Part shown: positions 3,455-6,416 of the stretch, in pieces
Position numbering within the stretch: position 1 is the first letter of the stretch
Layout: the number at the start of each line of letters is the position of its first letter
From: Rhodospirillaceae bacterium
Lineage (GTDB): Bacteria; Pseudomonadota; Alphaproteobacteria; Azospirillales; Azospirillaceae
NCBI GenBank assembly: GCA_029267445.1
Contig: JAJUIU010000030.1
Location: 1-42,785 of the forward strand
Direction of reading: 5' to 3'
Length of the DNA stretch: 42,785 nucleotides
Notes under the pieces: generated by a model
Told to the model about the DNA's origin: nothing
Database searches by the model: none
Seen by the model: only the letters and a program-made list of their open reading frames with translations
Program-made: the position numbers and the translations under genes

Positions 3455-3496
3455 GGTCGTCCGTCCGCCAGCCCCCCGTCCCCGCCTAATCATCCC

Positions 3497-3895
3497 GTCA
3501 TTCCCGCGAAAGCGGGAACCCATCGTGCCCTCCGGCCGTACCGCGCCAGGGGATCACGGATGGACACGGATGCCGGCTCTCGCCGGCGCACGGATGGACA
3601 CGAATGGGGTTCACGCCCTCCCCAGCCCCCTACCCGCGTCATGCCCGCGCACGCGGGCATCTCGAGCGGCCCGCGCCGACGTCCCGGTTCACCGCCCGTG
3701 GCCTTGGGTTCCCGCTTGCGCGGGAATGACGCCAGGAGGGACGTGCCGCGCAGCGGAATGATGAGCAAGCCTCCCCGTCGCCGTCATTCCCGCGCAAGCG
3801 GGAACCCATCGCTCCGCGATGACGGATCGGGCAGGAACGCAATCCGTGTCCATTCGTGCGCCGGCGAAGCCGGCATCCGTGTCCATTCGTGATCC
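3497..3895. repeat. Cluster of palindromic and inverted intergenic repeats
   Basis: Two repeat families alternate here. Family A is the palindrome CATTCCCGCG-AA-GCGGGAAC: copies at 3497-3524 and 3783-3810 on the plus strand, an inverted copy at 3705-3730 and a diverged copy at 3639-3661 (CATGCCCGCGCACGCGGGCA). Family B is about 55 bases built from GGATGGACACGGATG flanking a GCCGGC-GCCGGC hairpin: a plus copy at 3551-3606 and an inverted copy at 3840-3895, so the B copies bracket a roughly 340-base inverted structure. The bases between 3455 and 3964 hold no credible gene. Family A resembles interspersed repeats found in many proteobacteria. Confidence 0.85.
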
Positions 3896-3964
3896 ACTTT
3901 CCACTGCCACCGGATGCCCCGCCTTCACCGGTCGGGACGCAACACCCCCTCCGGCCCCGGACGG

Positions 3965-4801
3965 TCACGCCTTCGCCAGCACCGGCACGCTCTGCGGCAA
4001 CCGGCCGCCGATGCGCACGGACTCCGCCCGCTTGGCGAGCCCCGTGCGGTCATCCGTCTCCACGAACACGCCGCACACCGTCACCGTGGCGTCGTTCTCG
4101 GCGGGCGTGAAGCGCTCGCCCGGCAGGCGGCGCAGCATCTTGTGCATCGCCGCCTCCTTCTTCATGCCGATCACGCTGTCATAGTCGCCGCACATGCCGG
4201 CGTCGGTCTGGTAGGCGGTGCCGCCCGCCAGCACCTGCAGGTCGGCCGTGGGCACGTGGCTGTGCGTGCCGACGACCAGGCTCACCCGTCCGTCCAGCAC
4301 ATGGCCCATGATCATCTTCTCCGACGTCGCCTCGCCGTGGAAATCCATGATGGCGGCGTCCACGCCGCCGGGCCCCATCCGATGCGTGCGCAGCACCCGG
4401 TCGGCGGCGGCGAAGGGATCGTCCAGCGGGTCCATGAACACCCGCGCCATGGCGTTGATCACCAGCACCTTGCGCCGCCCGTCGCGGGTGGGCTGCACGA
4501 CGAAGCCGCGCCCCGGCGTGCCCTCGGGATAGTTGATCGGGCGCAGCAGGTTCGGCATGCGATCGATCTGTCCGACCAGTTCCTTCTGGTCCCAGACATG
4601 GTTCCCGGTGGTGATGACGTCGGCCCCGGCGGCGAAGAACTCGGCCGCGATCTTCTCGGTGATGCCGAAGCCGCCGGCCGCGTTCTCCCCGTTGATGACG
4701 ACGAAATCCAGCGACAGGTCGCGGCGCAGCGCGGGAAGATGGCGCAGCACGCCCTCCCGCCCGCTGCGGCCCACCACGTCGCCGAGGAATAGGATGCGCA
4801 T
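3965..4801 (-). CDS. YmdB-like metallophosphoesterase (TIGR00282 family)
   Basis: Belongs to the YmdB-type calcineurin-fold phosphodiesterases, whose studied members hydrolyse 2',3'-cyclic nucleotides and other phosphodiesters with a two-metal site. From the chosen ATG (4799-4801) the protein has 278 residues and opens MRILFLGDVVGRSGR, the family's usual start. Other motifs are VINGENAAGGFGI, TTGNHVWDQKE, MDFHGEATSEK and VVGTHSHVPTAD, which together supply the metal ligands. A GTG eight codons upstream (4823-4825) overlaps the stop of the cyclo-ligase gene but adds residues outside the family. Translation is probably coupled to that gene. In alphaproteobacteria this gene regularly follows folate cyclo-ligase. 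Confidence 0.88.
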   Translation of the reverse strand: MRILFLGDVVGRSGREGVLRHLPALRRDLSLDFVVINGENAAGGFGITEKIAAEFFAAGADVITTGNHVWDQKELVGQIDRMPNLLRPINYPEGTPGRGFVVQPTRDGRRKVLVINAMARVFMDPLDDPFAAADRVLRTHRMGPGGVDAAIMDFHGEATSEKMIMGHVLDGRVSLVVGTHSHVPTADLQVLAGGTAYQTDAGMCGDYDSVIGMKKEAAMHKMLRRLPGERFTPAENDATVTVCGVFVETDDRTGLAKRAESVRIGGRLPQSVPVLAKA

Positions 4802-4821: not shown

Positions 4822-5412
4822 TCACCGGAACCGGATCAGTCCGCGTTCCGTCGCGACCGCGTCCAGGGCCTGGTCGTACCCGTCCACGGGCACGGCGTCC
4901 ATCTCCTGCGCGGCGAATCCGATGCCCAGCACCGTGACCGGCCGGCCGTCGGCGCGCAAGGCCGCCAGCGTCCGGTCGTAGAAGCCGGCGCCGTAGCCCA
5001 GCCGCCGCCCCGCCCGGTCGAAGGCGAGCAGCGGCGCCAGCACCAGCGCGGGCCGAACCTCCGGCGCCTCCGGCACGGGCTCCATCACGCCGAAGGCGCC
5101 CGCCGCCAGCGCGTCCCCCTCCCGCCAGCGGCGGAACACCAGCGGGCGGCCCCGCTCCACCATCGCCGGCAGGCAGGTCCCGATCCCCTCCTCCGCCAGT
5201 CTGCGCAGCAGCGGCCGGACATCCAGCTCGTCCCGCAGCGGCCAGTAGCCCGCCACCGGCCCCCGCGCCGCGATCCCGTCAGCCAAGATGTGGTCCGCCA
5301 GCGCCGCCGCAGCCTGTTGCGCCGCCTCGGGCGGGATGGCGGCGCGGTGCGCCTTCGCGGTGGCGCGGGCGTCCCGCTTCAGGCGGGCGATGGCGTCGGG
5401 TCGATGGTCCAC
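4822..5412 (-). CDS. 5-formyltetrahydrofolate cyclo-ligase
   Basis: ATP-dependent conversion of 5-formyl-THF to 5,10-methenyl-THF, which recycles the folate storage form. With GTG at 5410-5412 as start it has 196 residues, the normal family size. The motifs PLLAFDRAGRRLGYGAGFYDR and GIGFAAQEMDAVPVDGYDQALD carry the ATP-binding and folate-binding regions. The same frame stays open to 5694, but that extension runs through the 6S RNA and is not protein-like, so I reject it. The gene sits directly downstream of zapA and ssrS, the classical place of this gene (ygfA in E. coli). Confidence 0.88.
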   Translation of the reverse strand: MDHRPDAIARLKRDARATAKAHRAAIPPEAAQQAAAALADHILADGIAARGPVAGYWPLRDELDVRPLLRRLAEEGIGTCLPAMVERGRPLVFRRWREGDALAAGAFGVMEPVPEAPEVRPALVLAPLLAFDRAGRRLGYGAGFYDRTLAALRADGRPVTVLGIGFAAQEMDAVPVDGYDQALDAVATERGLIRFR

Positions 5413-5494
5413 GGACCCGTTATAGCGCGCTCCGCCCCGCGCGGCGCGCTGTTTCCGGCCGAAGCGGTGCCGGGGATGAAGGGTGGAGCGAGGT

Positions 5495-5658
5495 GGACGG
5501 CGGCCGCTTGGCCGTTGGTTTATGAATATCCCTCGTGGCCTGCCATTAGCAGGTGGGCGCCATGTACCCGGACCAGGATCCGGGCAGGGACAGCTCCCAG
5601 AGAGATGGGTATCGGCCCCGGGGATAATGCGACCTGACGCACCGCGCAGCCGCCGTCC
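5495..5658 (-). ncRNA. ssrS: 6S RNA
   Basis: Lies between zapA and the folate cyclo-ligase gene, the conserved location of 6S RNA. The two ends pair perfectly: GGACGGCGGC at 5649-5658 with GCCGCCGTCC at 5495-5504 (as read on the minus strand), extending to 13 pairs with one G-U. Inside are a second short pairing (TATCCC/GGGATA, 5621-5626 with 5527-5532), a small CCTGC/GCAGG hairpin on the 3' side of the bubble (5539-5553) and a terminal CCCGGA/TCCGGG hairpin (5567-5584). The length of about 164 bases and the shape of closing stem, open bubble and terminal hairpin suit an RNA that mimics an open promoter and binds sigma-70 RNA polymerase. Ends are set by the stem, not measured. Confidence 0.8.
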
Positions 5659-5668
5659 TATCCCCAAT

Positions 5669-6052
5669 CTAGGCACGCTCGAGGCGCGCGGCAATGTCCT
5701 CTATGCGTTTGGCCAGACTGTCCACGGCGTTCACCACCGCCTCCTCCTCGAAAGCGTGGCCGTTCGCGGCCGGCGCCGCCGTCCGGGCCGTGGCTGTGGC
5801 GGGTGCCGGCTCCACCCCGGGGGCCGCCCGTCGCAGGGCGTCCAGTTCGCCCTGCATGTCGAAGATCTCGTCGGCCAGCATCAGCGCCGTCAGCATCAGC
5901 ACCTGGGCCTCGCTGCCCGTGGAGCGGTCGGAGGCGACCTCCGCCACCCGGCTGTCGACGAAGGCGGCGAGCTGACGCACGCGGGCCTCCTGCCCGTCCT
6001 CGCAGGCCAGCGTGTACGGCCGGCCGTTCAGCGAGATTTCAAGACGCGCCAT
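5669..6052 (-). CDS. zapA: Cell division protein ZapA
   Basis: Small cytoplasmic protein that bundles FtsZ filaments at midcell. The 127-residue sequence begins MARLEISLNGRPYTLACEDGQEARVRQLAAFVDSR in family style, then has the hydrophobic LMLTALMLADEIFD helix (about 52-65). The C-terminal half is a coiled coil (EEAVVNAVDSLAKRIEDIAARLE) separated by an Ala/Pro/Thr-rich linker near 75-95. It follows a small coiled-coil gene 54 bases upstream and precedes ssrS by about 10 bases, so 6S RNA may be processed from or overlap this transcript. Family length is about 100-130 residues. Confidence 0.9.
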   Translation of the reverse strand: MARLEISLNGRPYTLACEDGQEARVRQLAAFVDSRVAEVASDRSTGSEAQVLMLTALMLADEIFDMQGELDALRRAAPGVEPAPATATARTAAPAANGHAFEEEAVVNAVDSLAKRIEDIAARLERA

Positions 6053-6106
6053 TGCACCGATTCCTTTCGAACCCGGTCGCCGGAACCCCGGTCACCGGAC
6101 CATCCG

Positions 6107-6361
6107 TCACTCGTCCAGCACGGCCTTCAGCCGGCCGATGGCCCCGTCCAGCCGGGCCGACACCGCCGCCGTCGCCTCCCGCGCCCGGCGCTCGCCCTCG
6201 CGGGCGTCGGCCAGCGCGCGCTCCAGCTCCTGCCGCTCGGCGAGGCTCAGCGCGTCCCCGGCCTCCGCCGCCGCGATGCGGTCCAGCCGCCGCTCGATGG
6301 CGGCGTCCAGCCGCCCGATGGCGGTGTCCAGCCGTTCCAGCGCTGACGTCAGTCGGTCCAT
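6107..6361 (-). CDS. Small coiled-coil protein upstream of zapA
   Basis: With ATG at 6359-6361 this is an 84-residue, nearly all-helical protein with heptad-like repeats (LTSALERLDTAIGRLDAAIERRL) and no membrane segment. Short coiled-coil proteins of the DUF4164 type often precede zapA in alphaproteobacteria; I place it there on context and composition, not on a clear motif. A GTG nine codons upstream (6386-6388) is possible, but the candidate promoter predicts a transcript start downstream of it. A role in the divisome with ZapA is plausible by neighbourhood only. Confidence 0.65.
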   Translation of the reverse strand: MDRLTSALERLDTAIGRLDAAIERRLDRIAAAEAGDALSLAERQELERALADAREGERRAREATAAVSARLDGAIGRLKAVLDE

Positions 6362-6386
6362 GCCCCGATCCCCATGCCGCACGAGC

Positions 6387-6416
6387 ACACTAGGTGCGGC
6401 GGCGCACGCCCGTCAA
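6387..6416 (-). promoter_or_regulatory. Candidate promoter of the zapA operon
   Basis: On the minus strand TTGACG (6411-6416) is followed, after 18 bases, by TAGTGT (6387-6392). A start near 6380 would give a leader of about 20 bases to the ATG at 6361 and would exclude the upstream GTG at 6388. Confidence 0.5.

Follow-up and report, generated by a model that had tools for sequence, protein, structure and literature searches.

The feature at 5495–5658 is, on the evidence of its sequence, a genuine 6S RNA, a member of a known RNA family in its usual genomic place. It very probably represents a chromosomal ssrS gene with a housekeeping promoter of its own that overlaps the end of zapA, and its product would hold RNA polymerase and release it again through synthesis of a short product RNA (pRNA).

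The minus strand from 5655 to 5497 matched the 6S family of Rfam (RF00013), scoring 74.8 bits where the cut-off is 46.4 (E 4.3e-13), and the alignment spans model positions 1–187 of 187, without truncation. This covariance-model check bears out the identity proposed in the preliminary description, in which a 164-base RNA was recognized at 5495–5658 with its strand left unstated; the RNA is real, and it lies on the minus strand. When the whole window (the entire 42,785-nt stretch of DNA analyzed) was compared with all 4227 Rfam families, RF00013 was the sole match; a permissive Rfam scan of 5300–5900 returned the identical single match, and the genome to which the window belongs contains one RF00013 match only. 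The RNA is predicted to run from 5658 to 5495, the exact closing stem adding three bases at the 5′ end and two at the 3′ end of the Rfam match. Such a gene had been thought unlikely to be annotated, an expectation that does not hold: annotation does name genes of this kind, and a passage of a Skermanella genome paper lists ssrS among the genes (PMC11767975).

Among 59 genomes, including the window's own, 6S matches were found in 51, and 48 of the 59 had matches above the cut-off. Within the family Azospirillaceae, every genome had a 6S match (35 of 35, own included), with scores of 57.1–83.8 bits. One of the family genomes (G003) has two copies; the second, at positions 1501–1661 of locus L026 (68.8 bits), sits at a locus without a zapA or cyclo-ligase match, where the nearby frames resemble, by eye and from their translations only, small transporters of the SWEET type and a protein similar to RNase J.

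Table. Features of the zapA–6S–cyclo-ligase locus, in coordinates of the window
Feature	Position	Strand	Basis
6S RNA (ssrS), predicted 164 nt; Rfam match 5655–5497	5495–5658	−	RF00013 74.8 bits, fold, covariation
Closing stem, 5′ arm, 10 exact pairs	5649–5658	−	Sequence, fold
Closing stem, 3′ arm	5495–5504	−	Sequence, fold
Central bubble, 5′ strand, contains U5611	5599–5613	−	Alignment/consensus columns 51–68
Central bubble, 3′ strand, with small hairpin	5541–5554	−	Alignment/consensus columns 115–128
Terminal arm and hairpin	5555–5598	−	Fold, covariation (helices 5 and 6)
−35-like TTGCCG within zapA codons (ATT GCC G)	5689–5694	−	Wobble T in 35/35 family genes
−10-like TAGATT; TAG (5671–5669) is the zapA stop codon	5666–5671	−	Family comparison
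zapA, 127 aa	5669–6052	−	PF05164, E 1.4e-19
5-Formyltetrahydrofolate cyclo-ligase (FCL, ygfA/fau), GTG start	4822–5412	−	PF01812, E 1.4e-29

The three genes zapA, 6S and FCL lie on one strand in the same order as in E. coli, with gaps of 10 nt between zapA and 6S and 82 nt between 6S and FCL. A gene for a small DUF4164 protein (6107–6388, minus strand) is found directly upstream of zapA, and for a YmdB-like neighbor the best matches among named genomes were in Niveispirillum, Nitrospirillum, Skermanella and Azospirillum, matches that point to the Azospirillaceae. At the end of zapA, the sequence can be read as a sigma-70-like promoter with 17-nt spacing: TTGCCG (5694–5689), a 17-nt spacer, TAGATT (5671–5666) and a further 7 nt before G5658, the putative start. 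These distances fall within the ranges usual for such promoters, 16–18 nt from hexamer to hexamer and 5–9 nt ahead of the start. By our own count the two hexamers agree with the consensus at 8 of 12 positions; a generic promoter scan of 5300–6120, which had a threshold of 9 consensus bases, returned no sites, and the promoter was recognized through comparison of relatives.

In that comparison, the zapA frame of each locus was assigned by blastp match; of the 52 places with 6S, two (G046 and G055) were left out, and five of the remaining 50 had no zapA match. All 35 family zapA genes that adjoin 6S have TTGC at −23 to −20 before the stop codon together with a TAA or TAG stop. The codon that supplies the first T's of the −35-like element is ATT in 24 genes, CTT in 6 and GTT in 5, so that Ile, Leu or Val codons end in T in 35 of 35 cases at this position, versus 77 of 838 elsewhere within at most 110 codons before the stop, a background stretch that may in some loci extend past the zapA start. 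Among 35 zapA wobble columns, the one at the −35 position is the only column that is T throughout; the other 34 average 11.5% T. The zapA stops comprise 22 TAG, 13 TAA and no TGA, and FCL in the same loci stops with TGA in 21 of 35. Read from the stop codon onwards, 14 of the 35 loci have the hexamer TAGATT. The hexamer fits TANNTT in 27 loci and departs from this pattern in 8, three of which lack the final T (two TAAATA, one TAAGTC). The distance from the −10-like element to the RNA stem is 7 or 8 nt in 32 of the 35. Outside the family, zapA was matched in 10 loci, 6 of which show the arrangement and 4 of which do not.

A set of named loci served as a natural control: 80 were examined, and 58 had a zapA match. 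Of the 80, 16 were given to Rfam, and 6S was found in all 16. Where zapA and 6S are 8–22 nt apart, both TTG at −23 and a stop beginning with TA are present (23 of 23 loci), and where the spacing is at least 49 nt or there is no 6S match, none of 35 loci has both; these 35, mostly rhizobial, use TGA as the zapA stop in 27 cases. At least seven loci are shared between the named control and the family and outside set, and because relatives share descent, 35 of 35 does not amount to 35 independent events, a qualification that affects all of these counts. The comparisons show that the promoter-like elements are strongly constrained. Two loci from metagenome-assembled genomes (L043 and L046) have a 59-nt gap between zapA and 6S and lack the embedded promoter, unlike most of their neighboring rows in the table of loci. 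The candidate promoter within zapA is a new element of this locus; no description of a 6S promoter embedded in zapA was found in a small sample of the open-licence literature.

The RNA could instead arise solely through processing of a longer zapA–6S–FCL transcript, with the wobble T and the stop codon being features of the zapA message, for example a processing site. The short gaps between three genes on one strand (10 and 82 nt) would suit such a transcript, as would an intrinsic-terminator scan of 5300–6120 that found no sites. However, an invariant T in a TTG that lies 17 nt before a TA-hexamer, itself 7–8 nt from the RNA in 32 of 35 loci, is the geometry of a promoter, and the motif is missing from the 35 of 58 named loci that lack the short spacing. 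We consider processing as the only source of the RNA unlikely and favor an ssrS promoter that overlaps the end of zapA.

The fold of the RNA was assessed by comparison with relatives and with shuffled sequences. An alignment of 36 family 6S copies, including that of the window and the second copy of G003, gave a consensus structure of 48 pairs. In 18 of these, one or more sequences differ at both partners of the pair, compared with 9.3 in shuffles. The cells with double changes number 92 against a mean of 25.2 in shuffles, and 97.1% of cells are paired, compared with 34.4–46.5% once the partner is slid. Covariation across the 36 family copies is strong, and it reaches the outer stem of the window's own RNA, where, as a compensatory change, a C-G pair stands in place of the A-U found in 23 of 36 copies (columns 8 and 174). 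The 164-base RNA from 5658 to 5495 folds at −85.5 kcal/mol (z −4.42), with none of 200 shuffles as low; the opposite strand gave z −2.35, with 4 of 200 shuffles as low.

The perfect 10-base closing stem noted in the preliminary description is exact, though weak evidence when taken alone. Ten Watson-Crick pairs without a mismatch join 5658–5649 to 5504–5495, followed inwards by U-G, G-C and C-G, and the whole closing stem, interrupted inwards, pairs 5658–5632 with 5519–5495. The window contains 20 perfect inverted repeats of 10 bases that span 120–220, and 20 shuffles averaged 19.2. When the gap between zapA and FCL was shuffled, at least one perfect 10-base inverted repeat arose in 44 of 2000 cases. 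The stem was dropped as stand-alone evidence, being equally common in the window and in shuffles; it is raised above chance because of the covariance-model match, the presence of 6S in 35 of 35 family genomes and the covariation. In length it ranks near the top of the family without being the longest, since G032 has a run of 17 pairs with no interruption, including two G-U pairs; stem counts made with a fixed register or without bulges are too low for closing stems. Two extra outer pairs that appeared when flanks were added to the window's fold were taken as spurious. Elsewhere in the window, at 3490–3968, the translations of several overlapping frames contain SRLRGNDG, PACAGMT and ASGNP, and the region holds an inverted repeat with outer ends at 3510 and 3717; in appearance these frames resemble dispersed REP-like repeats.

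The central open region and the terminal hairpin that had been described were likewise found, at 5613–5599/5554–5541 and 5598–5555, respectively; the coordinates of the bubble and terminal arm were mapped by hand from the columns of the alignment and consensus structure. The feature has the hallmarks of 6S RNA, namely a long closing stem, a large central bubble and an arm with a terminal hairpin, with covariation behind them. In E. coli, the pRNA start is placed at U44 of 6S RNA in a passage of one report (PMC8876501). This residue sits in a CCGAU motif, and its equivalent in the window by alignment is U5611, on the 5′ side of the bubble; the pRNA is predicted to begin AUCGGCCCCGGGG, opposite U5611. 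The CCGAU motif region is altered in three family copies (L021, L025 and L115). The score of 74.8 bits, compared with 139.8 for E. coli, might be thought to indicate a decayed or non-functional 6S copy; this is very improbable, because the match is the only one in the genome, its score falls inside the family range of 57.1–83.8 bits, and the helices, bubble and CCGAU motif are intact.

Downstream, in the part of the FCL frame that separates the RNA from the conserved region, the GTG at 5412 is the sole ATG, GTG or TTG. The Pfam match starts at residue 12 counted from this codon and at residue 106 in the 290-aa open frame. The earlier correction of the FCL start to 5412 holds, because this GTG is the only usable start after the RNA, and the start of the gene is now fixed. 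The RNA had also been offered as the reason that the frame is open as far as 5694, an explanation that fails, since the FCL frame extends upstream without a stop to within the 6S gene in 28 of 35 family loci and crosses that gene completely in 8 of them; the open frame over 6S is putatively due to high G+C. That the region is merely the beginning of an extended cyclo-ligase gene from TTG 5694, which is open in frame, with a stem of a kind that arises by chance, has a negligible probability given the covariance-model match and covariation, a Pfam domain that does not begin until residue 106 of the long frame and the small number of family loci (8 of 35) in which the frame spans the entire 6S gene; to the extent that sequence can decide, this candidate is refuted.

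Compared with E. coli ssrS, the window's RNA is alike in its match to the full RF00013 model, its closing stem, its central bubble, which carries CCGAU where the pRNA would start, and its terminal arm. E. coli K-12 has the order zapA-ssrS-fau and an RF00013 match too. The two differ in that the window's RNA has a shorter terminal arm, where approximately 30 model positions are deleted, a predicted length of 164 nt versus 183 annotated, and a zapA–6S gap of 10 nt versus 41. The order and strand are those of the proteobacterial zapA-6S-ygfA synteny, a setting that is common but not obligatory. Passages of published reports describe this synteny for Alcanivorax (PMC9788540) and a broadly conserved SsrS-FAU1 operon, Alphaproteobacteria included (PMC7641849). 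ZapA and EVE genes flanking 6S are described in the latter as frequent in beta- and gammaproteobacteria and not in alphaproteobacteria (PMC7641849), whereas here a comparison limited to zapA places that gene beside 6S in all 35 of the family genomes. The passages concerned with synteny in these two reports (PMC9788540, PMC7641849) make no mention of the zapA stop codon as a −10 element. The Ms1 RNA of actinobacteria is similar in being 6S-like and polymerase-binding, but, in the portion of the literature consulted, it is described as binding core polymerase and not the holoenzyme; the window's only Rfam match is 6S.

The working proposed for this gene is carried over by analogy from partial accounts of 6S RNA in E. 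coli and B. subtilis, because of its membership of the family. Members of this family characteristically bind the sigma-70 RNA polymerase holoenzyme, act as template for pRNA and are abundant, stable RNAs in stationary phase, and the same would be expected here. ssrS would be transcribed from its own promoter by the housekeeping sigma factor, with the −35 element in zapA codons and a −10 element that opens with the zapA stop codon, and transcription would start 7–8 nt past the −10, at or beside the base of the closing stem on its 5′ side. Once folded, the RNA would imitate an open promoter and would hold the housekeeping RNA polymerase while cells are in stationary phase; during outgrowth, the polymerase would copy a short pRNA (5′-AUCGGCCCCGGGG...) from opposite U5611 and then be released. 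Transcription of zapA across the 6S promoter could, speculatively, lower use of the promoter.

The gene adds one more verified 6S RNA. Beyond this, we tentatively suggest, as a possibility that is still doubtful, that the zapA stop codon doubles as the 6S −10 box in the Azospirillaceae and in at least six further families of alphaproteobacteria, an arrangement that would exclude TGA and fix the wobble base of the −35 codon. With the 6S promoter fused into zapA in this way, polymerases transcribing zapA would run across it and might occlude it; were occlusion true, 6S output would rise as zapA transcription falls, tying growth arrest directly to polymerase shutdown. The candidate promoter offers a practical cue for locating 6S promoters in alphaproteobacteria, and it would be a testable case of overlapping information, in which regulatory sequence belonging to a global regulator of transcription limits the choice of codons and stop codon in a cell-division gene.
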